A stretch of DNA of 64,000 bases, from assembly GCF_002407065.1 (NCBI RefSeq), contig NZ_CP023564.1, positions 2,666,001 through 2,730,000 on the forward strand, written 5' to 3'. Shown in pieces: positions 21,854-57,556 of the stretch; position 1 is the stretch's first letter; each line of letters starts with the position of its first letter. The translations under genes were made by a program, and so were the position numbers. The notes beneath the pieces were generated by a model. The model was not told the origin of the DNA. It ran no database searches and saw only the letters and a program-made list of their open reading frames with translations. Source of the DNA: Brachybacterium ginsengisoli. Lineage in GTDB: Bacteria; Actinomycetota; Actinomycetes; Actinomycetales; Dermabacteraceae.

Positions 21854-22669
21854 ATGGTCGAGGTGATCGCGACCGTGCCGCAGGCGGCGCGGTGGGCGCT
21901 GTCGCCGGGCGACGGAGGTGCGGCCGGGGGCCGTGCCCGTCGTACGGCGTGGAATCCCGTCTATCGGGTGCTGGTCGGTGACGGTCCCGACGAGGCGGCA
22001 CTCTCCTCGCGCGCCCGGTCGGCGCAGCCCTCACCCGCGGAGCTGGACCTGCTCCGGCGGCATCTGGCCTCGCCGGCGCTCCTGGTCGCCGCCGTGACGG
22101 CCGCAGAGCACACGCACCGGGTGCGGTTCGGCCTGGATCCGGCGGGCGCGAGCACGGAGCGGTCCGATGACACGTCGGAGTCCCGCTGGGGAGAGGTGCC
22201 TCTCCACGCGGTGCCGCAGCAGATCCTCGATCTGCTCGAGGAGTCGGGACCGGATCTCCGGCGACCCGGAGTCGAAGGGCATGCCCGGGGCGGCGCGCTG
22301 CGGCTGTCCGAGGAGCTGGCCCGCGTCGCCCAGGCGGCGCTGGCTGGCGGACCGTCCATCGAGGCGGCGTTCACACAGATCCCCGACATGGATGAGGCGC
22401 TGCGCGACGCGGTGACGACGACCGGTCCGCGTCTCTCGCTCTCCCTCACCCTCCATGACCGGGGCGGCGTCGCCGCCGAGTCGCCCGTGACCTGGTCCCG
22501 GCTGTGGGTGCAGGGGCAGCGCGGCCTGTACCGGCTGGACAGCCGGTCAGGATCCGTCCTGACGGTGCGACCGGTGGCGAGCTCGGACGTCCTGGACACG
22601 CTGCTGCCGATCCTCGAGCAGGGCGTGCGCTTCTCCGCAGCCTGCTCCGAGGCGGGCGGAGCGCGATGA
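21854..22669 (+). CDS. Hypothetical, possible EspG-like partner of WXG protein
   Basis: A 271-residue soluble alpha/beta protein without signal peptide or membrane segment. The ATG at 21854 lies after a GGAGG-containing stretch. Its stop overlaps the start of the WXG-lipase gene by 4 bases (ATGA), so the two are co-translated. The C-terminal half (about 195-255: VTWSRLWVQGQRGLYRLDSR, then a helix DTLLPILEQG) is reminiscent of EspG-type ESX-associated proteins, which bind WXG/PE-PPE substrates. That likeness is weak and by eye; the firm observation is the coupling to a WXG-domain effector. It opens the accessory insert between folC and ileS. Confidence 0.5.
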   Translation: MVEVIATVPQAARWALSPGDGGAAGGRARRTAWNPVYRVLVGDGPDEAALSSRARSAQPSPAELDLLRRHLASPALLVAAVTAAEHTHRVRFGLDPAGASTERSDDTSESRWGEVPLHAVPQQILDLLEESGPDLRRPGVEGHARGGALRLSEELARVAQAALAGGPSIEAAFTQIPDMDEALRDAVTTTGPRLSLSLTLHDRGGVAAESPVTWSRLWVQGQRGLYRLDSRSGSVLTVRPVASSDVLDTLLPILEQGVRFSAACSEAGGAR

Positions 22670-24228
22670 GCGCCTTCTGGGGCATGGACCCCGAGCAGAT
22701 GCGCAGCCACGCCCAGCGGCTCCGCACCGCCTCCGGCGAGGTCGAGGCCCTGTCCGCCCGGCTGGGCACGACGGTGGAGGCGGCGACCTGGACGGGCTCC
22801 GACGCCGACGCGTTCCGAGAGCGCTGGGCGGTGCTGGCCTCGAGCCGGCTGACCGCATTGTGCGAGGAGCTGCTCGCTCTGAGCGAGGCCAGCGCGCAGG
22901 AGGCCGATCAGCAGGATGCCGTCTCCACCCAGAGCGATCCCGTCGGCCCGACCGGCGGCTCCTCGTCGCCTGCCGAACCCTCGCCGACCCGCCGTGGGTA
23001 TCGCCACGAGAATGATCCCCTGATCCCGGGCCGGCTGGGGAGTCCCGCGGAATCTCTCCTCTCCGGCGTCGCCCAGCGCGTCTCCGACGGCATCGGCTGG
23101 GGCGTCGACGCCGGGATCGACCTGCTCGAGGGCGGGCTGGGCCTGTTCGGGGTGAACACCGACGGCATCGCGCAGCTCCACCGGGATGCGGACCACTTCG
23201 GCGGCATCCTCGAGGACTGGGCGACCGGCGATCGGGTCCCGACCGTCGCAGAGGTGGGTGCCGCGGGCCTGCTCACCCTCGGCTCCGCCGGCGTCGGCAT
23301 CCAGGAGGCGATCACCGGAGAGGACACGCCTTTCCTGGACGACCGTCCCGGCGGCATCGTCGAGTCGGTCCGCATGGAGGCGACGAGCGCCCCGCAGGAC
23401 CTCCAGGATCTGATCGCCCGGAACGATGCGCTGCGGCTTCCCGACGGCGGGGCGCAGGACAGCGGCCAGATCGGGATCCAGGAGATCCGACGCGCCGACG
23501 GCGGCGCCCCGGGCTACATCGTGCAGATACCGCCCACCGAGGGGGCCTCCATCACGCACGTCCCGGAGGCATGGGGCGGGCAGGGCAGCTCGCGCGACTG
23601 GGCGTCGAACCTCCGCCTGGTCGCCGGTCAGCAGCCTGCCGCGATGGACGATGTGCGCGCCGCGATGCAGGCGGCCGGGATCCCGGCGGGCTCCGACGTG
23701 ATGATCGTGGGCCACTCGCAGGGCGGGATCGTCGCGAATCACCTCGCCGCGGACCCGGCCTTCAACTCGCCCACGGGCGAGGCGGGCAGCTACAACATCA
23801 CCCACACGTTCACCGTCGGCTCGCCCGTGCAGACGGTGGTGCCGGCGCAGGGCTCCACCCAGTCCGTGAACGTCCATCATCAGATGGACGCGAGCGCGCA
23901 GGGATTCAGCGGAGACCTGATCGCAGGGAGCGATCTGGACGGTCTCCAGATGGACGGCGGGATCCTGGGCGCTCCGAACCGGCACGAAGTCTCGTTGCCG
24001 GGGTATCCGGTGCCGTCCCCGAACCCGGTGGAGATCCTCGAGCACAACCACGATTCGACAGGGCGGGACGGCGAGCTCGACCTCGGCTACTCGGGAAGCG
24101 TCGATCGTGCCACGGGCACCGATCCGACGCTCTCCGCGCTCCAGCGCGAGCTCAGCGGGACCTATCTCGGCGAGGGCACTCACGTCGCCGAGTCACAGGT
24201 CGTGACGGTGGGCCGTGGCGAACCGTGA
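22666..24228 (+). CDS. WXG100-like domain fused to alpha/beta-hydrolase (lipase-like)
   Basis: A 520-residue protein. Residues 1-87 form a WXG100-like domain (MSAFWGMDPEQMRSHAQRLR; W42-T-G44; F50, W54), aligned without gaps to two other proteins in this window. A linker and a central helical, hydrophobic region (about 120-220) follow, then an alpha/beta-hydrolase domain with the nucleophile elbow IVGHSQGG (Ser351) and later His/Asp candidates in LEHNHDS. No classical signal peptide is present. This architecture, a secretion-targeting domain plus enzymatic C-terminus, is that of type VII-secreted polymorphic effectors. The gene is coupled to the preceding possible EspG-like gene; no ESX core gene (EccB/C/D/E) or immunity gene is recognised nearby. 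Confidence 0.8.
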   Translation: MSAFWGMDPEQMRSHAQRLRTASGEVEALSARLGTTVEAATWTGSDADAFRERWAVLASSRLTALCEELLALSEASAQEADQQDAVSTQSDPVGPTGGSSSPAEPSPTRRGYRHENDPLIPGRLGSPAESLLSGVAQRVSDGIGWGVDAGIDLLEGGLGLFGVNTDGIAQLHRDADHFGGILEDWATGDRVPTVAEVGAAGLLTLGSAGVGIQEAITGEDTPFLDDRPGGIVESVRMEATSAPQDLQDLIARNDALRLPDGGAQDSGQIGIQEIRRADGGAPGYIVQIPPTEGASITHVPEAWGGQGSSRDWASNLRLVAGQQPAAMDDVRAAMQAAGIPAGSDVMIVGHSQGGIVANHLAADPAFNSPTGEAGSYNITHTFTVGSPVQTVVPAQGSTQSVNVHHQMDASAQGFSGDLIAGSDLDGLQMDGGILGAPNRHEVSLPGYPVPSPNPVEILEHNHDSTGRDGELDLGYSGSVDRATGTDPTLSALQRELSGTYLGEGTHVAESQVVTVGRGEP

Positions 24229-24264
24229 GCCGGCGGGGACGGCGCCGCAACCGGGCGGCATCCC

Positions 24265-24708
24265 TCAGCCGATCCCGTACTTCTCGAAGAACGCCCCGGC
24301 CGAGACTCTGTCGGCCCTCGGATTCTCCGTGGGCATGTCCGGATCGAGCTCGAGCACGTCGAGCTGCTGCCCGTCACCCAGCCGCGCGACGATGCCGCCG
24401 ACCTTCAGTCCCGATGCGGCGTCGCCGTCGAGCTCGTCGGCGATCACCGAGATGATCGCCCTCATCGCGTCGTCGAACACGTGGACTCCGACCTCCCGCT
24501 CAGTGGTCCCCAGCTCGACGGTGCCCCGAAGTGCTGTCGAGAAGCTGTTGTTCACGAACCGCTCGAGCTCGGCGGATTCGACTCCCTCCACCGCGGCGGC
24601 GGCCTCCGCCGCCTCGTCCGAGACGTCCTTGCCGCCGACCAGGCATCCGCTCAGCACCAGCGTCACCGCCCCGGTCAGGCTCCCGAGAGCTCCCCGTCTG
24701 CTCACCAT
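24265..24708 (-). CDS. Small putative lipoprotein
   Basis: A 147-residue protein starting at 24708 behind a GGAGGAG ribosome-binding site. The leader SRRGALGSLTGAVTLVLSGC ends in a lipobox with lipidated Cys at about residue 22. The mature part is short, acidic and unfamiliar (VNNSFSTALRGTVELGTTER; a two-strand repeat-like pattern). It is convergent with the WXG-lipase gene. An anti-toxin or immunity role for that effector is conceivable because immunity proteins are often adjacent lipoproteins, but the opposite orientation argues against a simple pair. Confidence 0.7.
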   Translation of the reverse strand: MVSRRGALGSLTGAVTLVLSGCLVGGKDVSDEAAEAAAAVEGVESAELERFVNNSFSTALRGTVELGTTEREVGVHVFDDAMRAIISVIADELDGDAASGLKVGGIVARLGDGQQLDVLELDPDMPTENPRADRVSAGAFFEKYGIG

Positions 24709-24933
24709 CACCGCTCCTCCACCGCTGCTCGGGCGAGCTCCTCCGCCCTGCGATTCCGCCCTGCGATTCCGCTCTCCGACTCCGCCTGAGCATGCCACAG
24801 CCTGAGCCCGCGGGGCGGTCGGTCGCTCGGAGCTGTGGACGGACCGCGGGCCGTCCGCTGGACGCCTGCAGACAGCACCGTGGCAGGCAGGGGCGGCGCA
24901 GGACCGTAGGCCCGACCACCTGCCCCCGAACGA

Positions 24934-24968: not shown

Positions 24969-24979
24969 AGGTCAGGAGA

Positions 24980-27900
24980 TCAGGCGCGGGCCACGGACAC
25001 CGTCACGCTGCCGCCCGAGACCTTCTCCGTCGAGGAGTGCGCGCCCTCGGCCGGAGCCGCGGGCACCGTGAGCTCGACCGCGAGCACCTCGGCGGCGACG
25101 AGTTCGCGGTGCGTGCTGACCGCCGAGACCACGGTCTCGTCACCATCGACGGTCAGACGGATGCGGTCCGAGACCTCGAAGCCCGCCTCGCGGCGCGCGG
25201 CCTGGATCGCACGGACCACGTCGCGCGCAGTGCCCTCGGCCTCGAGCTCGGGGCTCACCCGGGTGTCCAGCGCGATGAAGTCGCCGCCGCGCAGCACGCC
25301 CACGGCATGGCCCTCCATGGCCGAGGAGTCGCCGGCCACGAGGTCGAGCGAGTACTCGCCCTCCTCGAGCGCGATCCCGCCGGAGACGACCTGACCGGCC
25401 TCGTCCACGGACCAGTCGCCCGACTTGGAGCCCTTGATGACGACCTGGACCTGCTTGCCCAGCCGCGGGCCGGCGGCGCGGGCGTTGACGCTGAGCCGCT
25501 GCTCGACGCCCATGCCCTGGGCCTCCTCGCTCGCGACGTCCAGCAGCCGCACCGCCTTGACGTTGAGCTCGTCGGCGATGATCCCCGAGAACCCCTCCAG
25601 GGAGGTCGGGTCGTGGTGGACGACCGCCAGCTCGGCGAGCGGGAGACGGGCGCGCAGCTGCTCCTTCTTGCGCAGGGAGTTGCCGACGCTCGCGATCCCG
25701 CGGACGTCGTCCATGCGGGCCACCAGCTCCGGGTCGCGGGGGAACAGGTTCGCGTCGGGCCAGTCGGTGAGGTGCACGGACCGCCCGCCGGTGAGCTGCT
25801 TCCAGATCTCCTCGGCGACCATCGGCAGCAGCGGCGCCGCCACCTGGCAGAGGGTCTCCAGGCAGGTGGAGAGCACGTCGATCGCCTGCTCGTCGCCCTC
25901 CCAGAAGCGGTCGCGGGAGCGACGCACGTACCAGTTGGTGAGCATGTCCAGGTAGTCCTGGATCAGCTCGGCGGCGTCGGCGATCGCGAGCGCGGTCATC
26001 GACTCCTCCACCTCGCGCACGAGGTCGCCGGTGCGGGCCAGCAGGTACCGGTCCATGACGTCGGTGGAGTCGAAGCGGGTCCGGCCGCGGTATCCCGTCG
26101 GCTTCCCGCTCGCGTCCTTCTCCCCCGCCGCGTTGGCGTACAGCCCCAGGAAGTACCAGACGTTCCACAGCGGCAGCACCATCTGACGGGTGGCATCGCG
26201 GATCTTCGGCTCGTCGACCACGAGATTGCCGCCGCGCAGGATCGGCGAGCTCATGAGGAACCAGCGCATCGCGTCGGCCCCGTACTTGTCGAACATCTCG
26301 CGCACATCGGGATAGTTGCCCAGCGACTTGGACATCTTCTGCCCGTCCTCGCCGAGCACGATGCCGTGGCAGATCACCGAGGTGAAGGCCGGGCGGTCGA
26401 ACAGCGCGGTGGACAGCACGTGCATGACGTAGAACCAGCCGCGGGTCTGCCCGATGTACTCCACGATGAAGTCCGCCGGGTTGTGGGACTCGAACCAGTC
26501 GGTGTTCTCGAAGGGGTAATGCACCTGCGCGAACGGCATCGAGCCGGAGTCGAACCAGACGTCGAAGATCTCCTCGACACGGCGCATGGTGGACTGCCCC
26601 GTCGGGTCATCGGGGTTCGGGCGGGTGAGCTCGTCGATGTAGGGGCGGTGCAGGTCCACCTCGCCGAGCTCGTTGTGCGGCAGGGTGCCGAAGGCCTCCT
26701 CGATCTCGGCGAGAGAGCCGTAGACGTCGATCCGCGGGTGGTTCGGATCGTCGCTCTTCCAGATCGGCAGCGGGGTGCCCCAGTAGCGGTTGCGGGAGAT
26801 CGCCCAGTCGCGGGCGCCCTCGAGCCACTTGCCGAACTGGCCGTGCTTGACGTTCCCGGGGACCCAGTCGATCTGCTCGTTCAGCTCGAGCATGCGCTCG
26901 CGCTGGTCGGCGACCTTCACGTACCAGGAGGAGACCGCCTTGTAGATCAGCGGGTTCCGGCAGCGCCAGCAGTGCGGGTAGGAGTGCACGTAGCTGGCCT
27001 CGCGCATCAGGCGTCCGGCCTGCTGGAGGTTGCGGATGATCGGGCGGTTCGCCTCGAACACCTGCACCCCGGCGATCTCGTCCAGCGCGGTGCCGGCGAA
27101 GTAGTCCAGGAACTGCGCACCCTCGTCCACGGAGACGATCACGGGGATGCCGTACTCGGCGTTGACCTGCTGGTCGATCTCGCCGTAGGCGGTGGCCTGG
27201 TGGACCACGCCGGTGCCGTCATCGGTGGAGACGTAGTCGGCGACGGTGACGATCCAGGCGTTCTCGGTGCCCCACTTGGCGCGGTCCTCGGAGTAGACCG
27301 TCCACAGCGGCTCGTAGGCGACGTGCTCGAGCTCGGACCCGGCGAGGACCCGCTCCTCGCTCGCGGCGAGCGCGTCCTCGGCGCTATCATAGCCGAGCTC
27401 CTTGGCGTAGGAGCCGAGCAGGGCCTGCGCCATCAGGTAGCGACCCTCTCCCGCGCCGGTGCCATCGGCGGCACCCAGCGGCCCGGCGGGGACCACCGCG
27501 TACTCCACCTCCGGGCCGACGGCGAGGGAGAAGTTGGTGGGCAGGGTCCAGGGAGTGGTGGTCCAGGCCAGCGCCTTCACGCCGTCAAGACCCAGCTGCT
27601 GGGCCTTCTCCCCGGTGAAGGGGAAGGTGACGGTGACGGTCTGGTCCTGGCGCTCCTTGTAGACGTCGTCGTCCATCCGCAGCTCGTGCGCGGACAGCGG
27701 CGTCTGGTCCTTCCAGCAGTAGGGCAGCACGTAGTAGCCCTCATACGCCCGGCCCTTGTCGTACAGGGTCTTGAACGCCCACAGCACCGATTCCATGAAG
27801 GTGACGTCGAGGGTCTTGTAGTCGTTCTCGAAGTCGACCCAGCGCGCCTGGCGGGTGACGTAGTCCTCCCACTCCTTGGTGTACTTCAGCACCGAGGCCT

Positions 27901-28276
27901 GGGCGGCGTTGTTGAACTCCTTCACGCCCATCGCCTCGATCTCGGACTTCTCTGTCATGCCGAGCTCCCGCATCGCCTCGAGCTCGGCGGGCAGGCCGTG
28001 GGTGTCCCAGCCGAAGCGGCGATCCACCTTGTTCCCGCACATGGTGCGGAAGCGCGGGACGACGTCCTTGACGAAGCCGGTGAGCAGGTGGCCGTAGTGC
28101 GGCAGGCCGTTGGCGAAGGGCGGGCCGTCGTAGAAGACGAACTCCTCGGCGCCCTCGCGCTGCGCGATGGAGGCGCGGAAGGTGTCGTCGCTGCGCCAGA
28201 ACTCCTGGACCGCGTTCTCGAGCGCGGGCAGGTTCGGCGAGGGGACGAGGGAGTCTCCGGTGACCGGGTAGACCAT
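24980..28276 (-). CDS. ileS: Isoleucyl-tRNA synthetase, eukaryote-like type 2
   Basis: Charges tRNA-Ile. The ATG at 28276 (MVYPVTGDSLVPSPN) gives 1098 residues; the frame extends upstream through the T-box and is not coding there. The catalytic HxGH motif is H60-Y61-G62-H63 within GLPHYGHLLTG, followed by RRFGWDTHGLPAELEAM; the KMSKS loop is GQKMSKSLGN. The editing (CP1) and anticodon-binding domains and a long C-terminal region are present. The residues around HxGH and the large C-terminal part are those of IleRS type 2, the clade that includes eukaryotic cytosolic and mupirocin-insensitive bacterial enzymes. Expression is very likely controlled by the upstream T-box. Confidence 0.95.
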   Translation of the reverse strand: MVYPVTGDSLVPSPNLPALENAVQEFWRSDDTFRASIAQREGAEEFVFYDGPPFANGLPHYGHLLTGFVKDVVPRFRTMCGNKVDRRFGWDTHGLPAELEAMRELGMTEKSEIEAMGVKEFNNAAQASVLKYTKEWEDYVTRQARWVDFENDYKTLDVTFMESVLWAFKTLYDKGRAYEGYYVLPYCWKDQTPLSAHELRMDDDVYKERQDQTVTVTFPFTGEKAQQLGLDGVKALAWTTTPWTLPTNFSLAVGPEVEYAVVPAGPLGAADGTGAGEGRYLMAQALLGSYAKELGYDSAEDALAASEERVLAGSELEHVAYEPLWTVYSEDRAKWGTENAWIVTVADYVSTDDGTGVVHQATAYGEIDQQVNAEYGIPVIVSVDEGAQFLDYFAGTALDEIAGVQVFEANRPIIRNLQQAGRLMREASYVHSYPHCWRCRNPLIYKAVSSWYVKVADQRERMLELNEQIDWVPGNVKHGQFGKWLEGARDWAISRNRYWGTPLPIWKSDDPNHPRIDVYGSLAEIEEAFGTLPHNELGEVDLHRPYIDELTRPNPDDPTGQSTMRRVEEIFDVWFDSGSMPFAQVHYPFENTDWFESHNPADFIVEYIGQTRGWFYVMHVLSTALFDRPAFTSVICHGIVLGEDGQKMSKSLGNYPDVREMFDKYGADAMRWFLMSSPILRGGNLVVDEPKIRDATRQMVLPLWNVWYFLGLYANAAGEKDASGKPTGYRGRTRFDSTDVMDRYLLARTGDLVREVEESMTALAIADAAELIQDYLDMLTNWYVRRSRDRFWEGDEQAIDVLSTCLETLCQVAAPLLPMVAEEIWKQLTGGRSVHLTDWPDANLFPRDPELVARMDDVRGIASVGNSLRKKEQLRARLPLAELAVVHHDPTSLEGFSGIIADELNVKAVRLLDVASEEAQGMGVEQRLSVNARAAGPRLGKQVQVVIKGSKSGDWSVDEAGQVVSGGIALEEGEYSLDLVAGDSSAMEGHAVGVLRGGDFIALDTRVSPELEAEGTARDVVRAIQAARREAGFEVSDRIRLTVDGDETVVSAVSTHRELVAAEVLAVELTVPAAPAEGAHSSTEKVSGGSVTVSVARA

Positions 28277-28309
28277 GAGGAGGGACCTCCGAGGAAGAAC
28301 GGGGCGGCG

Positions 28310-28520
28310 AAAGGACGGCATGCTGTCCGAGGACGCTTCCCGACCCGAGGGCCGGTGGCGCGGTACCACCTCGGTTGATGCCGTGCGCCGACGGATGCGA
28401 CGCAGGGCCTCCCCTTGTTCCTCAGCTGTGACGGGCTGGTCCCGGCGGGTTCTACTGCGCCCGCGCCCGAGGGCGATGGGCGGTTCTTCCCGCGGCTCTC
28501 CGGTGATGGCCGGGTCGATG
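28310..28520 (-). promoter_or_regulatory. T-box leader of ileS (ultrashort Stem I type)
   Basis: Reading the minus strand, a CCGG...CCGG mini-stem at about 28517-28500 exposes a loop with the isoleucine specifier AUC (complement of 28505-28507). It is followed by GGAGAGCC...GGGAAGAACC and AGTAGAACC elements like actinobacterial Stem II regions. The T-box core TGGTACCGCG lies at 28368-28359, where uncharged tRNA-Ile would pair. No run of T follows, so regulation is probably translational by exposing the ribosome-binding site before the ATG at 28276. The rest of the 440-base gap up to 28716 contains the divergent promoters and no other gene. Confidence 0.88.
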
Positions 28521-28716
28521 CCGATGGCGAGAAGTGTACGTGCCCGGCCTGCCGAGGTCACGCCCGGCCCGGGCGGAGGAGACACGGCGAACAGCACGGG
28601 GCGGCGGGGCGGTCCCAGCGAAACCGTGCCCGATCCTCAGCCCCTGCACAGGGGAAGGCACTGGACTGTCCCCAGCGGCGACGAGGACGCCGCTCCCCCG
28701 ATCAGGAGGAGACGAG

Positions 28717-41094: not shown

Positions 41095-41874
41095 TCAGGA
41101 GGAGAGCAGCCCGCGCGCGGCGTGGTCTCCCCGGTAGATCCCCGTGCGCAGCTCGATCTCGTAGGCCTCGCTCTCGGGCATGCCGAGCGCCCGGGTCGCG
41201 GCGATCTCCGGCTCGACGTCATAGGGCACCCGCAGGAACTGGATCCCGAACGGGGCGTCGGTGCCGCCGCCTGATCCCGCCGCATCGGCCGCCCCCTCGA
41301 GGATGGCGTACGACGGCGTCGGGTCGTCGAGCTGGTTGCCGACGCTGCCGACGTTCACGAGCGTCCCCTCCACGCCGGAGCGCAGGTACGGATCGTGGAT
41401 GTCGCCGTAGACGACGACGTCTGCGCGGGGGACGTCCCCGGTGAAGGGCGTGGGTTCGAACATCATCGCGAACTGCTCCGCGCTGTGGTCCCGGTGCACA
41501 CGGGTGAACTCGTCGATCGGCGAGGCGTGCAGCAGCCGCACCCGTCGGCCCGAGAGCTCCACATCGACGCTGCCGGGGACGCCGAAGAGCCAACGCCGCT
41601 CTTCTGCGGTCAGATCCTCGCGCCACCAGGCGTGCGCCGCGCTCCGGATCTCTCCGTCCCCGGCGACGAACACCTCCCAGTTGCCGCGCACGGTCGCCTC
41701 GCAGCGCTCCCGGGTCAGCGCCGTGCAGGCAGAGCCGCGAGGCCCCTTGCCCACCACGTCGCCGAGGTTGATCACGCGGGTGATGCCGCGCGCGGCGATG
41801 TCGGCGAGCACCGCCTCATAGGCGGTGAGGTTGCCGTGCACGTCGGAGACCACGGCCAGGCGTTCGACAGTCAT
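41095..41874 (-). CDS. Calcineurin-like metallophosphoesterase
   Basis: A 259-residue cytoplasmic phosphoesterase from the ATG at 41874 (MTVERLAVVSDVHGNL). Dinuclear metal motifs appear in order: SDVHGN (D9, H11), NLGDVVGKGP, VRGNWEVF, LLHASPIDE and YGDIHDPYL (GDIH in place of the commoner GHTH). It resembles YfcE/ApaH-like bacterial phosphodiesterases of unknown substrate. The gene stands alone between two copies of a palindromic repeat. Confidence 0.88.
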   Translation of the reverse strand: MTVERLAVVSDVHGNLTAYEAVLADIAARGITRVINLGDVVGKGPRGSACTALTRERCEATVRGNWEVFVAGDGEIRSAAHAWWREDLTAEERRWLFGVPGSVDVELSGRRVRLLHASPIDEFTRVHRDHSAEQFAMMFEPTPFTGDVPRADVVVYGDIHDPYLRSGVEGTLVNVGSVGNQLDDPTPSYAILEGAADAAGSGGGTDAPFGIQFLRVPYDVEPEIAATRALGMPESEAYEIELRTGIYRGDHAARGLLSS

Positions 41875-41904
41875 GGCCCCACCGTACGTGCGGCGCGACG
41901 CGCC

Positions 41905-42057
41905 GGCCACGCCGCCTCACCACGCCACGCCGACGCCCCGCCTCCCGACGCCGCGCCTCCCGACGCCCCGCCATGCCGACTCCCCGCCATGCCGACTCCC
42001 CGCCACGCCACGCCGCCTCCCGACGCCCCGCCCCGCCCCGCCCCGCCCCGCCCCGTT
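41905..42057. repeat. Low-complexity CCCCG/CCGCCTCCCGACG repeats
   Basis: The 406-base gap 41875-42280 between the divergent metallophosphatase and valS genes begins with about 150 bases of imperfect CGCCTCCCGACGCC- and CCGCCATGCCGACTCC-like repeats ending in a CCCCG pentamer run. Palindrome copy B follows. The last 160 bases must hold the valS promoter; I see no ORF there. Confidence 0.7.
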
Positions 42058-42118
42058 TGTCATGGGATGGCCTATAGCGACGAGAGGTGGCATATATGCC
42101 ATCTCTCGTCGCCATAGA
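42058..42118. repeat. Palindromic repeat family 2, copy B
   Basis: Arms 42072-42094 and 42095-42117 pair at 21 of 23 positions (22 if G-U is counted) around GGTGGCATATATGCCATC. It is homologous over about 55 bases to copy A at 40950. Unlike copy A it lies between divergent genes, so a terminator role is unlikely. Confidence 0.75.
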
Positions 42119-42280
42119 CCCTTCCGCGACATCCGTCGGCTGCCGCGCGGTCCGTTCCAGGGCGCGGGCAGGGCCCGCCGGCCCCCGACCGCCCCGTCCC
42201 GCGCCCCGTCCGCACGCGAGGGCGCTCACACTGCTGACGCCTGCGTTGCGCACGGACGCAGACCTGGAACAATGGCGAGC

Positions 42281-44962
42281 ATGACCGATACCGCACCGCG
42301 CCCCGACTCCGCCCTCCCCGACCGCCCCTCCCTCGAGGGCCTCGAGGCGAAGTGGGACGGCGTATGGAGCGAGCAGGATCTCTACGCCTTCGATCCGGAG
42401 ACCACCCGCGATCAGGTCTTCAGCGTCGACACCCCGCCGCCCACGGCCTCAGGCTCCCTGCACGTCGGCCACGTGTTCGGCTATTCCCAGGCCGACATGA
42501 TCGTGCGCTACCAGCGCATGCGCGGCAAGAACGTGTTCTACCCGCTGGGCTGGGACGACAACGGCCTGCCCACCGAGCGCCGCGCCCAGAACTACTACGG
42601 CGTGCGCTGCGATCCCACGCTCCCCTACGTCGAGGACTTCACGCCCCCGCAGGAGGGCGGCTCGAACAAGTCCGCGAAGGCCGCGAACCAGCAGCCGATC
42701 TCGCGCAAGAACTTCATCGAGCTGTGCGAGCAGCTGACCGCTCTGGACGAGAAGTCCTTCGAGGACGTCTTCCGCGCGCTGGGGCTCTCGGTGGACTGGC
42801 AGCACAGCTACCAGACCATCAACTCCGCCTCCCGCGCCACCTCGCAGCGCGCCTTCCTCGAGAACCTGCAGCAGGGCCAGGCCTACCAGTCCGAGGCCCC
42901 CACCATGTGGGACGTCACCTACCGCACCGCGGTGGCGCAGGCCGAGCAGGAGGACCGCGAGCGCGAGGGCGCCTACCACCGCCTGGGCTTCACCCGCACG
43001 GATGCCGGGGCCGGTGAGGACGCGACCGTCTACATCGAGACCACCCGCCCCGAGCTGCTGCCGGCCTGTGTCGCCCTCGTGGCGCACCCCGACGACGAGC
43101 GCTACCAGGGCCTGTTCGGCACCACCGTCACCTCTCCCCTGTTCGGCGTCGAGGTGCCCGTGATGGCGCACCCCCTCGCGCAGCCGGACAAGGGCGCAGG
43201 CATCGCGATGATCTGCACCTTCGGCGACTCCAACGACGTCACCTGGTGGCGCGAGCTCTCCCTGCCCACCCGCTCCGTGGTGGGCCGCGACGGCCGCTTC
43301 CTGCCCGAGGCGCCGTGGATCTCCACCGCCGAGGGCCAGGCCGCCTATGCCGAGCTCGCGGGCCTGACCGTGTTCAGCGCGCAGAAGCGCGTGGTCGAGA
43401 TGGCCGCCGAGTCCGGCGACCTCGTGGGCGAGCCGAAGAAGATCACCCACCCGGTGAAGTTCTACGAGAACGGCGACAAGCCGCTCGAGTTCGTGACCTC
43501 CCGGCAGTGGTACCTCACCAACGGCGGCCGCGACACCACCGAGGGCGGTCTGCGCGACGACCTGATCGCCCTCGGCTCCGAGCTCACCTGGCACCCGGCC
43601 TACATGGAGTCCCGCTATCGCAACTGGGTCGAGGGCCTCGCCGGAGACTGGCTGATCTCGCGCCAGCGCTTCTACGGCGTGCCCTTCCCGGTCTGGTACG
43701 GCGTGGGCGCGGACGGCGAGACCGACTACGACACCATCCTCACCCCCGCGATCGAGGACCTGCCGATCGATCCCACGATCGATGTGCCGGCCGGGTTCTC
43801 CGAGGAGCAGCGCGGGCAGGCCGGCGGCTTCGTCGCCGACCCCGACATCCTCGACACCTGGGCCACCTCCTCGCTGACCCCGCAGCTCGCGGGCGGCTGG
43901 AACGCGGCCGACGGCGGCGACCTGTTCTCGAAGGTGTATCCGATGGACCTGCGCCCCCAGGGCCACGACATCATCCGCACCTGGCTGTTCTCGACGATCG
44001 TGCGCTCGCACCTGCAGCAGGACTCCCTGCCGTGGAAGCACGCCTCGATCAACGGCTGGATCCTGGACCCGGACCGCAAGAAGATGTCGAAGTCCAAGGG
44101 CAACGTGGTCACGCCCATCGGCCTGCTGGAGCAGCACGGCTCGGACGGCGTGCGCTACTGGGCCGGTCGCGCCCGCCAGGGCGTGGACACCGCCTTCGAC
44201 GAGGGGCAGATGAAGATCGGTCGCCGCCTGGCGATCAAGATCCTCAACGCCTCGAAGTTCGCGCTCGGCTTCGGCGAGGCGCCGGCGGATCCCGCCGGGC
44301 GCCTGGCCGCCGACCCGTCGGTGGTCACCGATCCGCTGGACCGCGCGCTGCTCGCACAGCTGGCCGACGTGGTCGAGCAGGCCACCGTCGCCTTCGAGGA
44401 CATGGACTACGCCCGCAGCCTCGAGGCCGTCGAGCCGTTCTTCTGGGCCTTCTGCGACGACTACATCGAGCTGGTCAAGGAGCGTGCGCACGGCAACTCC
44501 CCCGCCGGCGAGGCCGGTGCTGCCTCGGCCCGGGCCGCGCTCGCGATCGCGCTCGAGGTGCTGCTGCGCCTGTTCGCCCCCGTGGTCGTGTTCGCGACCG
44601 AGGAGGTCTGGTCGTGGTGGCGCACCGGCAGCGTGCACACCCAGGAGTGGCCCGAGTCCGCTCCGCTGCGCGAGGCGGCGGCCGGCCAGGACGGCGCGCT
44701 CGTGGACTCGGTCGCCCAGGCGGCCATCACGCTGCGCCGGATCAAGTCCGATGCGAAGGTCTCGCAGAAGACCCCGATCCTCGCGGTGACCGTCGAGGCT
44801 CCGCAGTCCGTGCTCGCGCACCTCGAGGCCGCCGCGGCGGACCTCACCGCGCTCGGCCGGGTGGAGAAGCTCGAGCTGGTCGTCGGCGAGGGCGAGGAGA
44901 TCCTCACCCGCGACGTGGAGCTGGGCGAGCCGCCGGTCAAGCAGCCGCGCGCCAAGGGCTGA
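42281..44962 (+). CDS. valS: Valyl-tRNA synthetase
   Basis: Charges tRNA-Val. I start at the ATG at 42281 (MTDTAPRPDSALPDR, 893 residues); an in-frame ATG at 42272 is equally possible because neither has a strong ribosome-binding site. HxGH motif in SGSLHVGHVF, GWDDNGLPTERRAQNYYG, editing-domain YIETTRPELLPACVALV, KMSKS loop in DRKKMSKSKGNVV, C-terminal anticodon-binding domain and a short coiled tail. No T-box is seen upstream. The following small membrane gene starts 28 bases later and is probably co-transcribed. Confidence 0.96.
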   Translation: MTDTAPRPDSALPDRPSLEGLEAKWDGVWSEQDLYAFDPETTRDQVFSVDTPPPTASGSLHVGHVFGYSQADMIVRYQRMRGKNVFYPLGWDDNGLPTERRAQNYYGVRCDPTLPYVEDFTPPQEGGSNKSAKAANQQPISRKNFIELCEQLTALDEKSFEDVFRALGLSVDWQHSYQTINSASRATSQRAFLENLQQGQAYQSEAPTMWDVTYRTAVAQAEQEDREREGAYHRLGFTRTDAGAGEDATVYIETTRPELLPACVALVAHPDDERYQGLFGTTVTSPLFGVEVPVMAHPLAQPDKGAGIAMICTFGDSNDVTWWRELSLPTRSVVGRDGRFLPEAPWISTAEGQAAYAELAGLTVFSAQKRVVEMAAESGDLVGEPKKITHPVKFYENGDKPLEFVTSRQWYLTNGGRDTTEGGLRDDLIALGSELTWHPAYMESRYRNWVEGLAGDWLISRQRFYGVPFPVWYGVGADGETDYDTILTPAIEDLPIDPTIDVPAGFSEEQRGQAGGFVADPDILDTWATSSLTPQLAGGWNAADGGDLFSKVYPMDLRPQGHDIIRTWLFSTIVRSHLQQDSLPWKHASINGWILDPDRKKMSKSKGNVVTPIGLLEQHGSDGVRYWAGRARQGVDTAFDEGQMKIGRRLAIKILNASKFALGFGEAPADPAGRLAADPSVVTDPLDRALLAQLADVVEQATVAFEDMDYARSLEAVEPFFWAFCDDYIELVKERAHGNSPAGEAGAASARAALAIALEVLLRLFAPVVVFATEEVWSWWRTGSVHTQEWPESAPLREAAAGQDGALVDSVAQAAITLRRIKSDAKVSQKTPILAVTVEAPQSVLAHLEAAAADLTALGRVEKLELVVGEGEEILTRDVELGEPPVKQPRAKG

Positions 44963-44990: not shown

Positions 44991-45482
44991 ATGGGATCCA
45001 CCACGGTCCGTGCAGGGTCGAGCTCCGGGCTCATGTGGGCCGGCGCTGCGCTCGTCTTCATCGGCTTCTTCACGGCGCTGTACTCCGTGGCGCTGCTGGT
45101 GCGCAGCGAGTTCGTGAGCGCCGCGCTGGTGGTGCTCCTCGGGCTCCTGGTGATCGCCGCCGGGATCGCGCTGTTCGTGCTGGCGCGGCGCGCCTGCGCG
45201 CGGGTCGACGACCGCGGGGTCTCCTGGTCCACGATGCTCGGGGCCCGCGGCTTCGTGCCGTGGGAGCAGGTGCACCAGGTGGTCGTCCCGCAGATGCACG
45301 AGCAGGGCGACTCCGTGCTGCTGTGGCTCCGGGACGGCACCGTGGTGCCGGTCGACTCCCTGCGCAAGACGCAGAGCGCGGACGACAACACCGGTACGCA
45401 CGAGTGGTACCAGCGGTCCGGGGCCGCCGTGATCCGCGCCCATCAGCAGTGGCTCGCCCAGCACCCGCAGCAGAGCCGCTGA
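44991..45482 (+). CDS. Membrane protein with PH-like cytoplasmic domain
   Basis: A 163-residue protein with two TM helices (about 13-37, 43-65) followed by a soluble beta-rich segment (RVDDRGVSWSTMLGARGFVPWEQVHQVVVP) resembling bacterial PH-like domains. ATG at 44991 behind CGAGGAGGGATCGAG. It follows valS closely. Function unknown. Confidence 0.82.
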   Translation: MGSTTVRAGSSSGLMWAGAALVFIGFFTALYSVALLVRSEFVSAALVVLLGLLVIAAGIALFVLARRACARVDDRGVSWSTMLGARGFVPWEQVHQVVVPQMHEQGDSVLLWLRDGTVVPVDSLRKTQSADDNTGTHEWYQRSGAAVIRAHQQWLAQHPQQSR

Positions 45483-50194: not shown

Positions 50195-50263
50195 GGGACC
50201 TCCTGGGGCCGACGAGGCGACCGCGCCGCGGGGGCGACGGCGCCTGGGGCGATGATGGATTCT

Positions 50264-50358
50264 TGGCGGAGACGGACGGGAATCGAACCCGCCAGACCGA
50301 GATGCTCGGTCTCACCGGTTTTGAAGACCGGGGCGCCCACCAGGACACGTACGCCTCC
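50264..50358 (-). tRNA. selC: tRNA-Sec (UCA)
   Basis: On the minus strand a 95-base cloverleaf runs from GGAGGCGT to an encoded CCA (complement of 50264-50266). The anticodon loop CTTCAAA carries UCA, the T loop is GGTTCGATTCC, and the extra arm is long (GAGACCGAGCATCTCGGTCT). The 3' acceptor strand CCGTCTCC pairs at seven of eight positions with the 5' strand, the elongated stem expected for tRNA-Sec. It sits between selA and the divergent selD. Confidence 0.95.
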
Positions 50359-50434
50359 ATCGCCCAAGGTAGCACCGTGGATCCGGGAGCGACTGCGCTG
50401 GTCACCCACCGAGGCGACGGCCTAGGCTCGGGTC

Positions 50435-51454: not shown

Positions 51455-51494
51455 GCGCGGGCTGGGCACACCGAGCCGCCTCCCGCTGCGGCGG

Positions 51495-52610: not shown

Positions 52611-53608
52611 CGGCGCCCGCCCAGGAAGGAGAGCGCGGCCACGGCCACCATGCCCGCCGCGGCGAGGCCCACCCGGGCGTAGCTGCCGGGGAGGCTCGCG
52701 GTGGGGACGTGCGGGTCCGGCGGCAGGCCGTACACCTCGGGCTCGTCCAGCAGCAGGAACACCGATCCGATGCCGCCCACCCCGTCCTTGGGGTTCGCAC
52801 CGTACAGGCGGGCCTCGGTCATGCCGCGGTCGTGGAGATCCGCGACCCGTCCTCGCGCATCCTCGGCGAGCTCGGTGTGCTCCCCGAAGCGGATCGACTG
52901 CGTGGGGCAGGTCGCCGAGCAGGCGGGCTGCTCGCCGTCGGCGAGGCGGTCGTGGCACAGGGTGCACTTGCTCGCGGTGCCCATGCGGTCGATCTTCTCG
53001 TCGCGGTTCGCGTGCGGCGAGATGGTGCCGTCGTCACGGCGCTCGATGACCCCGAACGGGCAGGCGCTCACACAGGTCCCGCAGCCGTTGCAGACGTCCT
53101 GCTGGACCACCACCGAGCCGTGCTCGGAGCGGAAGATCGCCCCGGTGGGGCACACGTCCAGGCAGCCGGCGTTGGTGCAGTGCTTGCACACGTCCGAGGA
53201 CATCAGCCAGCGGAACTCAGGGGTGTCCGGCGGGGTGCGGTCCGTGCTCGAGAGATCGCCGGCGGGGGTGGCGCCGCGAGCACCTGAGGACTTCGGGCCG
53301 ATCCCGGGCATGCCCAGGCTGACCAGCTTGCGGCCCGACTCCCGGGCCTCCTCGATGCGGTCCTGCCCCTGCTCGACGAAGGCCACGTGCCGCCAGGTGT
53401 TGGCGCCGAGCGCCCCGGTGTTGTCGTAGCTCGAGCCGAGGATCTGCAGGTCGCCGTCGATCGGGTTGCGATTCCACTCCTTGCACGCCACCTCGCAGGC
53501 CTTGCAGCCGATGCAGATCGAGGTGTCGGTGAAGAAGCCCTTGCGCTCGTGGTCGTGTCCCCACCCGGCATCCGCGGCGGGACCGGCAGGCCCTGAGAGC
53601 AGGCTCAT
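52607..53608 (-). CDS. Formate dehydrogenase iron-sulfur subunit
   Basis: A 333-residue electron-transfer subunit with four [4Fe-4S] motifs: CIGCKACEVAC, CKHCTNAGCLDVC, CNGCGTCVSAC and CTLCHDRL with the later PACSATCP. A C-terminal hydrophobic helix (VGLAAAGMVAVAALSFLGG) can anchor it to the membrane, as in FdnH. It overlaps the catalytic-subunit stop and the NrfD start by 4 bases each. Confidence 0.94.
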   Translation of the reverse strand: MSLLSGPAGPAADAGWGHDHERKGFFTDTSICIGCKACEVACKEWNRNPIDGDLQILGSSYDNTGALGANTWRHVAFVEQGQDRIEEARESGRKLVSLGMPGIGPKSSGARGATPAGDLSSTDRTPPDTPEFRWLMSSDVCKHCTNAGCLDVCPTGAIFRSEHGSVVVQQDVCNGCGTCVSACPFGVIERRDDGTISPHANRDEKIDRMGTASKCTLCHDRLADGEQPACSATCPTQSIRFGEHTELAEDARGRVADLHDRGMTEARLYGANPKDGVGGIGSVFLLLDEPEVYGLPPDPHVPTASLPGSYARVGLAAAGMVAVAALSFLGGRR

Positions 53609-56600
53609 CGATTCCTCATCTCCTTGATCGAGCTCTCCCCCGAGGGTACGGCGGAGGCCTCCTCCGGACCACGGACCTCGTGCGCGATCGAGTCATCGGC
53701 AGGGCCCGCCCCGGGGGCGCCGTCCGCGCCATCCACGGCCCGATGCTCCTCCGGGGCCAGACCTGCCCGGCGCCGGAGCTCCTCCACCAGCTCGCCCCGC
53801 GCCCGACCCTGGGGCCTGCGCCCCGGGAGGATCGCGCACGAGTTGTTCTTGCTGTTCTGGATCTGCGTGTTGGCGTCGAGGTTCATGCCAATCAGGTCAT
53901 TGGCGCCGTCTCCCTGGACGATCGCCTCGCTGCCGCGGCCCCAGTGGAAGGGCAGGCCGATCTGGTGCACGGTCCGCTCCCCCACCTGCAGCGGCGTCAT
54001 CCGCTCGGTGACCAGCACCTTGGCCTCGATCGCGCTGCGCGCCGAGATGATGGTCGCCCAGCCGTAGGGCTCCAGCCCCACCTCCTCGGCCAGCTCCGGC
54101 GAGACCTCGCAGTACATCTCCGGCTGCAGCTCCGCGAGATACGGCAAGAAGCGGCTCATCCCGCCGGCGGTGTGGTGCTCGGTGATCCGGTACGTGGTGA
54201 AGATGTACGGATACACCTCGCCGCCGCGGGCCGAGGCGCCGGGCGAGCTGAGGTTGTCCTCGCTGCGGAAGGTGACCCGGGTGGGGTTGGACTGCTGCGA
54301 GTAGAGCGGGTTGGGGATCGTGGACTCCGGTGACTCGTAGTGCGTCGGCAGCGGCCCGTCCACCAGACCGGTGGGCGCGAACAGCCACCCTCGGCCGTCG
54401 GACTGCATGATGAACGCGTCGGTGCCGGAGAGCGCCGCCGCCCCGCCGCGCTCGGGGTCGCCCGGATCATCGGGACGCTTGGTCAGCGGGAAGTCGGGGA
54501 CGTCGTCGCCGGTCCAGGTCCCGGCCTCCTCGTCCCACCACACCAGCTTCTTGCGCTCGCTCCAGGGCCGTCCCTCGGGATCGGCCGAGGCACGGTTGTA
54601 GAGCACCCGGCGGTTCGCGGGCCAGGCCCAGCCCCACTCGGCCGCGATCTCGCCCTGCTCCGGGGTCGCCGGGCGGCGCCGGGCCTGGTTCACCCCGTCG
54701 GCGTAGACGCCGGCGTAGATCCAGCACCCGCCGTCGGTCGAGCCGTCGGCCCGCATCTCCGCGAAGGAGGACAGCGGGCGGCCCGCCCGCTCACCGTCGA
54801 GGTGTCGGCCGTTGATCTCGGCGAGCACCGCCTCAGCATCCGGCTCCCCGTGCTCGTTGACCGGATAATCCCAGGTCAGCTCCTGGATGGCACGGTCGCG
54901 CGGATCGGTGGAGTCCTGGAGCTTCTCGCGGATGCGACGCCCGAGCTCGTACATGAACTCCAGATCGCTGCGGGCGTCACCGGGCGGTTCGACGGCCTGG
55001 TCGCGCCACTGCACCATGCGCTGGGTCTGGGTGAAGGAGCCTGCCTTCTCCGTGTGGTTGGCCGCCGGCAGGAAGAACATCTCGGTGCCGACCTCCTCCG
55101 GGGAGAGCTCACCGGACTCCACCTCGGGTCCGTCGCGCCAGAAGGTGGCGGACTCGATCATGTAGAAGTCCCTCACCACCATCCACTTCAGCTTCGCCAT
55201 GGCCTTGCGCTGGAGCCTGCCGTTGGCGGATCCGACGGCAGGGTTCTGGCCGAACAGGAAGTAGCCGTCGACCCCGCCCTCGAGCATCCTCATGGTGGTC
55301 TGGTAGGTGCCGTGGGCGCCGGTCAGCTTGGGCAGGTGGTGGTAGCCCCAGTCGTTCTCCGCCGTGGCGTTGTCGCCCCACCAGGCCTTCAGGAGGTTGA
55401 TGGTGTAGACGTCCGCGTTCGCCCAGAAGCCCTTCTGCTCCTTGGTGCCGATGGCGCGGGTGAACGCGGCGAAGTCGTCCTGGCCCACCTTCGGCATCGG
55501 CAGGTAGCCGGGGAGGATGTGGTAGAGCGTGGGGATGTCCGTGGAGCCCTGAATGGTGGCGTGGCCGCGCAGGGCCATGATGCCGCCGCCGGGACGGCCC
55601 ATGTTGCCCATGAGCAGCTGCAGCACTCCGGCGGTGCGGATCATCTGCGCGCCGCCCTGGTGCTGGGTCCAGCCCAGGGCATAGGCGAAGACGGTGGTCC
55701 GCTCGCGGCCCGAGTTCTCGGCGATGGCCGTCGCCAGATGCTCGAAGTCCTCCGGGGAGATGCCGCAGGTGTCCTGGACCATCTGCGGGGTGTAGCGCGC
55801 GTAGTGGCGCCGCAGGATCTGGAAGACGGTGCGCGGGTGCTGCAGGGTCTCGTCCCGCTCGGGCAGCCCGCGGGCCACGTCCTCAGGATCACCGGCGTAG
55901 GCCCACCGGCTGTTGTCGTAGGTGCTGGACTCCTCGTCGAAGCCGGAGAACAGCCCGTCCAGGTCCTCCGTGTCGGCGTACTCCTCGGAGATGATCGTCG
56001 AGGCGTTCGTGAAGGCCCGGACGTACTCCGAGAAGTACAGCTCGTTCTCGAGCACATGCCGGATCACGCCGCCCAGCAGCACGATGTCCGTGCCGGTGCG
56101 GATCGGGATGTGTCGATCAGCGTTCGCCGAGGTGCGGGTGAAGCGCGGATCGACATGGATCACGCGGGCACCGCGCTTCTTCGCCTCGATCACCCATTGG
56201 AAGGCCACCGGATGGGCTTCGGCCATGTTGGAGCCCTCGATGACGATGAGGTCCGCATTGGCGAAGTCCTGCACTGGCTGCGTGGCACCGCCACGCCCGA
56301 ACGAGGCTCCCAGACCGGGAACCGTGGCGGAGTGTCAAATACGGGCCTGGTTCTCGATCTGGATCGCGCCCGCCGCCGTGAAGAACTTCTTGATCAGATA
56401 GTTCTCCTCGTTGTCGATGGTCGCGCCGCCGAGGCTGGCGATGCCCATCGTGCGCTTGAGGGGACGGCCCTGATCGTCCTCCTCCTCCCAGTACGCGCGC
56501 CTCGCCTCGATGAACCGATCCGCGATCATGTCCATCGCGACATCGAGATCGAGGTCCTCCCAGTCGGTCGCGTACGGGCGGCGGTAGCGCACCGTGGTCT

Positions 56601-56901
56601 GACGGAGATAGGAGTTGGCCAGCTGCTGGCTGGCGGCGCCCTTCGGGCAGAGACGACCGCGGGACACCGGCGAGTCAGGGTTCCCCTCGATCTGGACGAC
56701 CTTGCCGTCCTGATGGAAGACCTTCTGCCCGCAGCCGACGGCGCAGTACGGGCAGACGCTGTCCGCGACCCCGTCAGCCGTGACGGTGCGCGGGACCGTG
56801 CTGCGGGTCGCCGCCGACGTGACGGCCGTGCCCCGCCCGGTCGGATCCGCCCCACGGAGCTGCCGGAGAACCGGCCAGTCGAGGAACGTGAGACGTGACA
56901 T
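53605..56901 (-). CDS. fdhA: Formate dehydrogenase catalytic subunit, selenoprotein (UGA at 56337-56335)
   Basis: Molybdopterin enzyme oxidising formate to CO2. The frame is split by one in-frame TGA, residue 189, in ENQARI-U-HSATV, exactly the Sec position of FdhF/FdnG. Read through, it is 1098 residues. The N-terminal [4Fe-4S] ligands are C50, C53, C57 and C85; molybdopterin-binding domains follow (SNMAEAHPVAFQWV, HVDPRFTRTSA, GNMGRPGGGIMALRGHA) and the C-terminal domain contains SNPTRVTFRS. No twin-arginine signal is seen (N-terminus MSRLTFLDWPVLRQLRG). A naive annotation would report two genes or a pseudogene. Confidence 0.95.
56288..56337 (-). promoter_or_regulatory. SECIS element in fdhA
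   Basis: Immediately after the UGA, on the coding strand, GGTTCCC pairs with GGGAGCC around the loop GGTCT, the loop with the GU that SelB recognises in the E. coli fdhF element. A lower stem CCGCCACG/CGTGGCGG can extend it. The loop begins 21 bases from the U of the UGA. Confidence 0.82.
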
Positions 56902-57004
56902 GCCGGCATGCTATCAGCGCGGACCAGGGCTGACCGGCCTCCGCGCCCCTCGTGTTCCGACGTGGGGCGTGGGGGCGGAGCGGGCCCGCCCGGATCGGGA
57001 CCGG

Positions 57005-57556
57005 TCAGAACAGGTCGATGTTCGGGCGCGGCAGAGGCTGCGGCAGAGGCCAGAGATCAGGCAGGGGAAGCGGTGCAGGCAGCGGCTGGGGCAGCGGCCA
57101 GTCCTCCGGCGTGGGCCACGGCTCCGGCAGCGGGAGCGGCTCCGGGAGGGGCAGCGGGTCACCCGGGATCGGCAGGTCCGGGAACGCCGGAAGCGTCGGG
57201 AACGGCAGGTTCGGGAACCCCGGCAGGGTCGGGATCGGGAGGAAGTCCGGCAGCTTCTCGAGAACGGGGATCCCGGACCCGGATCCGCCGTCCGAGGACG
57301 CCTCGTCCTGCTCGTCGGCGTGACGGTTCAGCTCATCGGCGTCGGCCCGCAGAGCGTCGATCGCCGACTCGAGCCGGGTCTGCACCTCGCTGGACCAGCG
57401 CTCGCGGAATTCGTCGGCATCAGGGCCCACCCACGCCACGGAGCCGACCAGCGCCACGCACCGGGCGAGCAGTGACTCGACCGTCCCCGCCGCTCCCTGG
57501 CACGCCGTCGCCTGCTGGCGCACAGCCTCACTGTCGGCTCCCCAGAACCCGCTCAT
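57005..57556 (-). CDS. WXG100-like protein with Pro-rich tail
   Basis: 183 residues from the ATG at 57556 (a TTG precedes it in frame). Residues 1-87 (MSGFWGADSEAVRQQ; W42-V-G44; F50, W54; HADEQDEAS) are the same domain as in the genes at 22666 and 46901. The rest is a Leu/Pro repeat tail (LPLPEPLPLPEPWPTPEDWP) ending NIDLF. It looks like a family member lacking a C-terminal domain, or a structural/adaptor version. Upstream GGGGGAGACGTTG resembles the ribosome-binding region of the gene at 46901. Located just downstream of the selenocysteine island. Confidence 0.8.
   Translation of the reverse strand: MSGFWGADSEAVRQQATACQGAAGTVESLLARCVALVGSVAWVGPDADEFRERWSSEVQTRLESAIDALRADADELNRHADEQDEASSDGGSGSGIPVLEKLPDFLPIPTLPGFPNLPFPTLPAFPDLPIPGDPLPLPEPLPLPEPWPTPEDWPLPQPLPAPLPLPDLWPLPQPLPRPNIDLF

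Follow-up and report, generated by a model that had tools for sequence, protein, structure and literature searches.

The genes considered here have their closest described relatives in the type VII secretion system T7SSd of Olsenella and Bifidobacterium, which is reported to lack a ubiquitin-like component (Garrett, Higginson, and Palmer 2024; PMC11217815), in the type VII-secreted lipase TslA of Staphylococcus aureus, which loses its activity when S164, D224 or H251 is changed and is neutralized by the lipoprotein TilA (PMC10730906), and in the PFNA operon of bifidobacteria, which has been described as sensing host immune signals (PMC8430577). For these and the other papers cited by PMC number, our statements extend to the portions of the published text that we drew on. 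We analysed a window of 64,000 nucleotides from the chromosome of Brachybacterium ginsengisoli (NZ_CP023564.1, positions 2,666,001 to 2,730,000), in which three genes, starting at 22666 (+), 46901 (-) and 57556 (-), encode proteins that share an N-terminal WXG domain (L and G numbers below are our labels for loci and genomes). On the strength of sequence comparisons, we consider it probable that the three are members of a Brachybacterium family of effectors of a T7SSd-like system, some of which would act as interbacterial toxins.

A WXG100 domain shared by three proteins

The initial annotation had described the three proteins as aligning residue for residue over positions 1-87 and diverging thereafter, and it was borne out on both points, as well as in the coordinates, strands and starts of the genes. 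The MAFFT alignment of the three is gap-free over residues 1-94 and has 22 invariant columns, including M1, S2, F4, G6, D8, W42-x-G44, D46-A47, F50-R51-E52-x-W54, Q83-D84 and S87. When residues 1-87 are compared in fixed register, the three pairs share 31, 36 and 38 identities and have BLOSUM62 scores of 143, 170 and 202; 20,000 shuffles per pair gave means of -53 to -57 (standard deviation of about 18) and maxima of 21, 39 and 24. Residues 88-183 have 6-8 pairwise identities out of 96 and score between -87 and -137. Because residues 1-87 score far above the shuffled sequences and residues 88-183 below zero, the N-terminal similarity is real and has a sharp end. The C-terminal parts are an alpha/beta-hydrolase with a GHSQGG motif (22666), a glycine-rich region (46901) and a proline-rich tail (57556). 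The ungapped register is limited to the proteins of the window: relative to them, L011 has one additional residue, L016 has three, and several others are shorter by one or two.

The Pfam WXG100 model matches the three proteins with E-values of 1.1e-4, 0.031 and 0.0034 (22.8, 15 and 18 bits, compared to a cut-off of 27.3), and the 22666 gene scores 27.8 in the genome-wide search. The NCBIfam model TIGR03930 (WXG100_ESAT6) gives E-values of 1.8e-7, 4.2e-4 and 6.8e-4, also below its curated cut-off. In a search of the PDB with a 14-row profile of the domain, the best matches are EsxA and EsxB structures (E-values from 7e-7, for EsxA 2vs0, to 2e-4). We conclude that the 87-residue N-terminus is a genuine WXG100 domain. 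That the likeness is a generic helical or compositional background unrelated to secretion, a possibility against which the initial annotation had proposed a check, is highly improbable: scores under the curated cut-offs and weak profile matches to some designed helical bundles would fit such a background, but the shuffle test is far exceeded, EsxA and EsxB head the PDB matches, G6, W42, G44, D46, Q83 and S87 are invariant across 74 aligned family members, and the genome carries a type VII locus.

A genus-wide set of fusion proteins

A search of the 3.95-Mb chromosome with a 3-row profile (E-value up to 1) returned 16 matches, which comprise the three window proteins, seven other long proteins (L011-L016 and L020), four small WXG proteins and two doubtful cases. 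The latter, L021 (a frame without a start codon upstream of the match) and L023 (E-value of 0.04), were left out of the effector set. The set of three originally recognized is real, but it belongs to a larger complement of about ten long and four small WXG proteins. The four small genes adjoin the gene of a type VII ATPase (see below), whereas the long ones are scattered and none adjoins it. The long proteins have a conserved start at the WXG domain, ahead of which no signal peptide was recognized by eye, although some frames have possible upstream starts.

The profile search of actinobacterial genomes that the initial annotation had called for gave matches throughout the genus. With the 14-row profile and E-values up to 1e-4, all 24 Brachybacterium genomes (our own and 23 others) have 5-21 matches each; outside the family, seven of the 14 genomes of the order that were searched have 1-5. 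A broader sample of the order comprised 99 genomes, of which 22 match at 1e-6, distributed as 6/6 for the genus, 1/1 for another genus of the family and 15/92 elsewhere. We did not find this Brachybacterium fusion set described in the literature searched, the scope of which left out most subscription papers and preprints. For this set, the result agrees with the earlier suggestion that the family is undescribed, but a WXG-led class of actinobacterial toxins has already been described (PMC3482391).

To list the C-terminal domains, we took 60 regions of the genus, made up of the best-scoring matches with long open frames and of lipase loci, and therefore an uneven sample. The 64 proteins of these regions and the ten long proteins of our own genome give the 74 analysed here. 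By BLASTP at 1e-6, their C-termini fall into clusters of 17 (helical, with a 'Gly-zipper' label given by eye), 13 (lipase), 11 (46901 type), 5 (nuclease), 4, 3 (calpain), 3, 2 and 2, plus 14 singletons. At an E-value of 0.01, Pfam finds PGAP1 in nine proteins, Endonuclea_NS_2 in five, Lipase_3 and Hydrolase_4 in four each, Peptidase_C2 in three, Cutinase in two and a few others, so that NucA-type nucleases and calpain-like proteases are found among the WXG-tagged extensions alongside lipases. The 46901-type cluster has members at ten other genus loci among those fetched, and a relative of the small protein encoded at 44991-45482, for which the Pfam search gave weak matches only, adjoins 11 of 11 members (single-linkage BLAST cluster). 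Because the same domain is fused to C-termini as different as lipases, proteases and nucleases, among others, and the fusion genes have specific neighbours, the set has the pattern of polymorphic effectors. This designation of the initial annotation, which rested on a constant N-terminus with swapped C-termini, stands genus-wide, where the unrelated C-terminal parts include enzymes; within the window it fits less well, where two C-termini are without a recognizable toxin domain and two of the loci are fixed.

The calpain-like proteases fused to WXG100 are at L028:5087-6253, L173 and L175, and the L175 copy is apparently broken. Short Brachybacterium calpains have been reported to branch close to the root of the calpain tree, and WXG100-calpain fusions have been noted in Herpetosiphon and Segniliparus (PMC4631099). 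A gene for a 107-aa protein (aa, amino acids) without a Pfam match, L028:4767-5090 (-), has a four-base overlap with the end of the calpain-type WXG gene. Another WXG protein, L176:2882-3811 (-), carries the HExxH-type motif HEVRH in the C-terminal part and is possibly a metallopeptidase; Pfam named no family for this part and gave weak matches only.

The lipase and candidate immunity partners

In the 40 aligned lipase rows (five loci entered twice), S351 and D417 are present in all and H462 in 32, the remaining rows being possibly misaligned. The window lipase is 36 per cent identical over its full length to its paralogue at 216 kb. Among the 23 other genus genomes, its identity is 58-74 per cent in 16 and 43-52 per cent in six, and the one further genome (74 per cent complete) has a 30 per cent match only.

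By tblastn, relatives of the window lipoprotein occupy the same convergent position at 15 of 23 genus lipase loci (our own included). A lipobox rule finds a lipoprotein gene within 500 nucleotides of 18 of 30 lipases (the repeat loci L179 and L185-L188 being excluded), two of three calpains, none of five nucleases and one, doubtful, of 53 other members. In a second lipase group (L146, L180 and L182), the lipoprotein is encoded downstream in the same direction. At the L070 locus, the lipoprotein is present twice. Because nine of the 22 loci L064-L085 (L080 among them) have no lipoprotein by the rule, the partner is often missing or unrecognized. A start-overlapping upstream gene like that of the window also precedes the lipase at L093-L097, L179, L181 and L182; the window protein encoded at 21854-22669 has no Pfam match at 0.1 and no meaningful match in the PDB profile search.

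The type VII ATPase is 79-94 per cent identical in 22 of the 23 other genus genomes (62 per cent in one), the 12 best full-length lipase orthologues are 64-74 per cent identical, and the lipoproteins beside those 12 are 29-53 per cent identical, with none found beside three. The faster divergence of the lipoprotein compared to lipase and ATPase favours an arms-race partner, although it is not proof of one.

Other members have partners of their own. A related lipoprotein family, in convergent or divergent orientation, is found by tblastn near three of three calpains; the rule match at L028 is a different, 327-aa lipoprotein, and L173 has none by rule. All five nucleases are followed by a related gene with no evident signal peptide (four partners of about 160-169 aa, the fifth found by tblastn). 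A family of 265-349 aa proteins adjoins 18 WXG members, downstream in the same direction at 15 and convergent at three; these members are mostly of the Gly-zipper type, as far as the clusters show. Judged by linkage, partners anchored outside the cell for lipid and envelope enzymes and cytoplasmic-type partners for nucleases would look like a pattern of immunity proteins. Pfam and PDB searches gave no support for a resemblance of the nuclease partner to EsaG/DUF600, and clusters of aminotransferase-like (by eye) and tRNA-synthetase neighbours were set aside as conserved surroundings rather than partners.

A T7SSd-like locus with PFNA genes

The initial annotation took the proteins to be substrates of an ESX/type VII system and asked whether the genome has type VII components. 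It does: a locus at 1.32-1.35 Mb of the same chromosome contains the only EssC/EccC-type ATPase gene (1,488 aa, 1339647-1344113), the next match of the models being a 1,039-aa frame with an ATPase core only, like FtsK. The ATPase carries an FHA domain and scores 546 bits with TIGR03928 (EssC of Bacillota) and 360 bits with TIGR03924 (EccCa), both below the cut-offs. EccB has no match in our genome, with a model that matches 26 of 98 genomes of the class (our own among the 98). On account of the missing EccB and of the higher EssC score of the ATPase, we reject ESX (T7SSa) as the machine, and only the type VII part of the earlier assignment, to which the WXG100 domain and the ATPase locus speak, is retained. 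An orthologue of the ATPase is present in 24 of 24 genus genomes, in pieces in some drafts.

As in T7SSd, the ATPase bears an FHA domain and is nearer to EssC than to EccC, and by domains and size the locus has counterparts of the WXG100 protein TsdA (here just under the cut-off), the kinase TsdD and the large Ig-like protein TsdI, a giant of 2072 aa with 11 Big_9 and five fn3 stretches. These comparisons indicate that the locus is T7SSd-like. The AAA ATPase has partial NCBIfam matches to chelatase-like families, and 'MoxR-type' is our own label for it. For the 160-aa protein, an LpqN-like reading was dropped (no Pfam match, and no BLASTP similarity to a look-alike near L016). The first 100 residues of the EssC/EccC-type ATPase (L099:1501-1800) contain a conserved stretch of about 90 residues, for which the only PDB matches are ubiquitin-like and non-significant (E-values of 0.33-0.89); Pfam gave no match, and an assignment to YukD/EsaB was not accepted.

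The small WXG gene pair downstream of the ATPase is tandemly duplicated (L025:5238-6794, corresponding to genome positions 1345238-1346794), with one copy apparently degraded (truncated and without a good start). G011 likewise carries two small WXG pairs.

Comparisons of the locus by tblastn covered two further genomes of the genus and the four from other families that have an ATPase 44-57 per cent identical along most of the protein. All six have matches to the giant, AAA, transglutaminase, PP2C and kinase genes within about 25 kb, and five to DUF58 as well; in G010, of the genus, several locus genes match weakly and the kinase by its last 75 residues only, and the RDD-FHA, second FHA and 236-aa genes were not found in G032. 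The control queries tyrS and SHMT matched only in G010, so that this comparison has no real negative control. The order in G032 (kinase, giant, AAA, DUF58, transglutaminase, PP2C) is that of the first six PFNA genes as published (PMC8430577). Here, and largely in the six other genomes, the type VII locus is merged with genes of the bifidobacterial PFNA operon. The main text of PMC8430577 does not mention WXG, FtsK or EccC, that of PMC11217815 does not mention transglutaminase, fibronectin, DUF58 or MoxR, and PFNA, Bifidobacterium and type VII secretion were not found together in the literature searched. We tentatively suggest, with somewhat less than even confidence, that the PFNA genes could be the envelope and control half of an Actinomycetota type VII subtype, with an EsaB-like ubiquitin fold fused to the ATPase N-terminus, which would export dispersed WXG100-tagged lipases, calpains and nucleases that have matching lipoprotein or cytoplasmic immunity.

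Proposed mechanism and alternative explanations

If the three proteins are effectors, their N-terminal 87 residues would fold as a WXG100 helical hairpin, which would be recognized by the EssC/EccC-type ATPase of the T7SSd-like system, and the C-terminal part would be the exported cargo. The 22666 protein would be a serine lipase that, once secreted, acts at the membrane, most likely that of competing Gram-positive cells; the lipoprotein, anchored outside the producer membrane, would block the lipase, and the product of the upstream gene may help the lipase to fold or to be exported. The same route would be taken by the 46901 and 57556 proteins. Export by the ATPase, toxicity, immunity and the chaperone role are all what we infer from sequence.

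Several observations weigh against an effector role. Besides the domain scores of the window proteins below the curated cut-offs, Pfam WXG100 at 0.01 matches just 19 of the 74 family members, and two of the three window C-termini have no toxin domain recognizable by Pfam. Pfam and PDB profile searches linked the partner proteins to nothing known. These searches include those made for an EspG-like chaperone, a likeness that was suggested by eye for the partners of about 255-350 aa (21854-22669 and the A8 family) and is no more than an idea. The lipobox rule finds no lipoprotein at 12 of 30 lipases (tblastn does give a match for L080, which is among these 12), and the window lipoprotein, being convergent with the lipase, shares no operon with it. 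The ileS gene is in the short flanks of 17 of 23 genus lipase loci and valS in the flank of 10 of 10 fetched 46901-type loci; because they are fixed beside these genes, neither the window lipase nor the 46901 gene is swapped at its position. Such fixed loci fit a housekeeping role in the envelope equally well, and that role is the main rival: the lipase and the glycine-rich protein would be type VII substrates that serve the producer itself, in lipid remodelling or surface structure, with the lipoprotein as a regulator or anchor of the lipase. The conservation of the lipase across most of the genus and the lipases without a lipoprotein are also compatible with it. We nevertheless hold this explanation to be rather unlikely, since divergence is faster in the lipoprotein than in the lipase, the lipoprotein is doubled at L070, and the same N-terminus is carried by nucleases with a related cytoplasmic-type partner in five of five cases, which are hard to call housekeeping proteins.

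A different export route, with the 1.34-Mb locus serving only its own small WXG100 proteins, would account for the scattering of the fusions away from the ATPase gene and for some of the distribution outside the genus. Among the 14 outside genomes, a WXG match coincides with an ATPase at 48-57 per cent in three (G028, G030 and G031), but G032 has the ATPase (44 per cent) without a WXG match, and in G033 and G035-G037 the WXG matches are accompanied by distant ATPase relatives only (30-39 per cent), which likewise counts against the effector reading; the remaining six have no WXG match and partial or distant ATPase matches. Within the genus, effectors and ATPase are well associated; beyond it, the association is loose. 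Our genome, however, has a single full-length EssC/EccC-scoring region, and its long proteins begin, possible upstream starts apart, at the WXG domain, so we judge a separate route to be improbable.

If the three genes do encode type VII effectors, the entire genus holds a large dispersed effector set (5-21 matches to the WXG profile in each genome, counting small WXG100 proteins) whose tagged N-terminus is short and readily searched. Its lipase, calpain and nuclease types would have candidate immunity partners located where such proteins are expected in the cell, the lipase-lipoprotein pairing of Staphylococcus would extend to Actinomycetota, and there would be a hint as to where some bacterial calpains act. 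The bifidobacterial PFNA operon would be linked to a secretion machine, making its function directly testable.

Features of the window and neighbouring genes

The features are collected in Table 1. Two of the WXG genes flank a selenocysteine cluster (47070-56901). WXG genes lie near various aminoacyl-tRNA synthetase genes: ileS (lipase), valS (46901 type), leuS (L020), gltX (L012, about 2.4 kb away) and pheS (L171).

Table 1. Coordinates and characteristics of window genes, the type VII locus and synthetase neighbours.
Feature	Position	Strand	Remarks
WXG100-lipase fusion, 520 aa	22666..24228	+	WXG domain 22666-22926; triad candidates S351 (GHSQGG), D417, H462
Upstream partner of lipase, candidate secretion chaperone	21854..22669	+	open frame from 21758; stop overlaps lipase start by 4 nt
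Lipoprotein, candidate immunity protein	24265..24798	-	lipobox LSGC; likely start ~24708; convergent with lipase
ileS	24980..28597	-	usual neighbour of lipase/lipoprotein pair
valS	41825..44962	+	neighbour of 46901-type gene
Small protein, membrane-spanning by eye, candidate partner/immunity protein	44991..45482	+	convergent with 46901 gene
WXG100 with Gly-rich C-terminal part, 449 aa	45552..46901	-	WXG domain 46641-46901
selB	47070-48857	-
selA	48857-50194	-
tRNA-Sec	50264-50358	-
selD-like	50435-51454	+
Formate dehydrogenase	56901-56200	-	open frame continues across an in-frame TGA at residue 189
WXG100 with Pro-rich tail, 183 aa	57005..57556	-	WXG domain 57296-57556
Type VII locus, gene order before ATPase			giant Big_9/fn3, AAA ATPase, DUF58, transglutaminase, RDD-FHA, PP2C, FHA, Ser/Thr kinase, 236-aa protein
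Type VII locus, genes after ATPase			WXG100 protein, 160-aa protein
Synthetases besides window ileS and valS	L031:3513-6470; L029:9447-10964; L171:4012-5202

Comparison with known systems

The fusion set shares with the toxins described by Zhang et al. (2012; PMC3482391) a WXG domain joined to toxin domains such as nucleases and peptidases, in Actinobacteria among others, whereas calpain and the Brachybacterium lipase and calpain sets with lipoproteins were not found in the text of that paper that was searched. LXG toxins of Bacillota T7SSb likewise combine a constant N-terminal targeting domain, a variable toxin and adjacent immunity genes (candidates in our case), but here the domain is an 87-residue WXG100 domain and the partners have about 255-350 aa. 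Because the shortest of the 64 frames found with the WXG profile in the 60 fetched regions has about 205 aa, these regions contain no small stand-alone WXG (Lap-like) gene by profile.

Both the window pair and TslA/TilA consist of a type VII lipase (a candidate one here) with Ser, Asp and His and an adjoining lipoprotein that is multiplied at some loci (PMC10730906). The TslA targeting domain is C-terminal, whereas here it is N-terminal and of WXG100 type, with the lipase domain at the C-terminus, and TslA and TilA are co-transcribed, unlike the convergent genes of the window.

With the PFNA operon, the type VII locus shares the kinase, fn3, AAA, DUF58, transglutaminase, PP2C and FHA genes (PMC8430577). 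With T7SSd it has in common the WXG100 protein, the EssC-like FHA ATPase, the Ser/Thr kinase, the very large Ig-like protein and the occurrence in Actinomycetota; compared to T7SSd as described, the Brachybacterium locus adds AAA, DUF58, transglutaminase, RDD-FHA, PP2C and further FHA genes (PMC11217815). The effector candidates reported for T7SSd are Rhs and LXG-like proteins encoded at the locus (PMC11217815), whereas those of Brachybacterium are scattered over the chromosome and tagged with WXG100.

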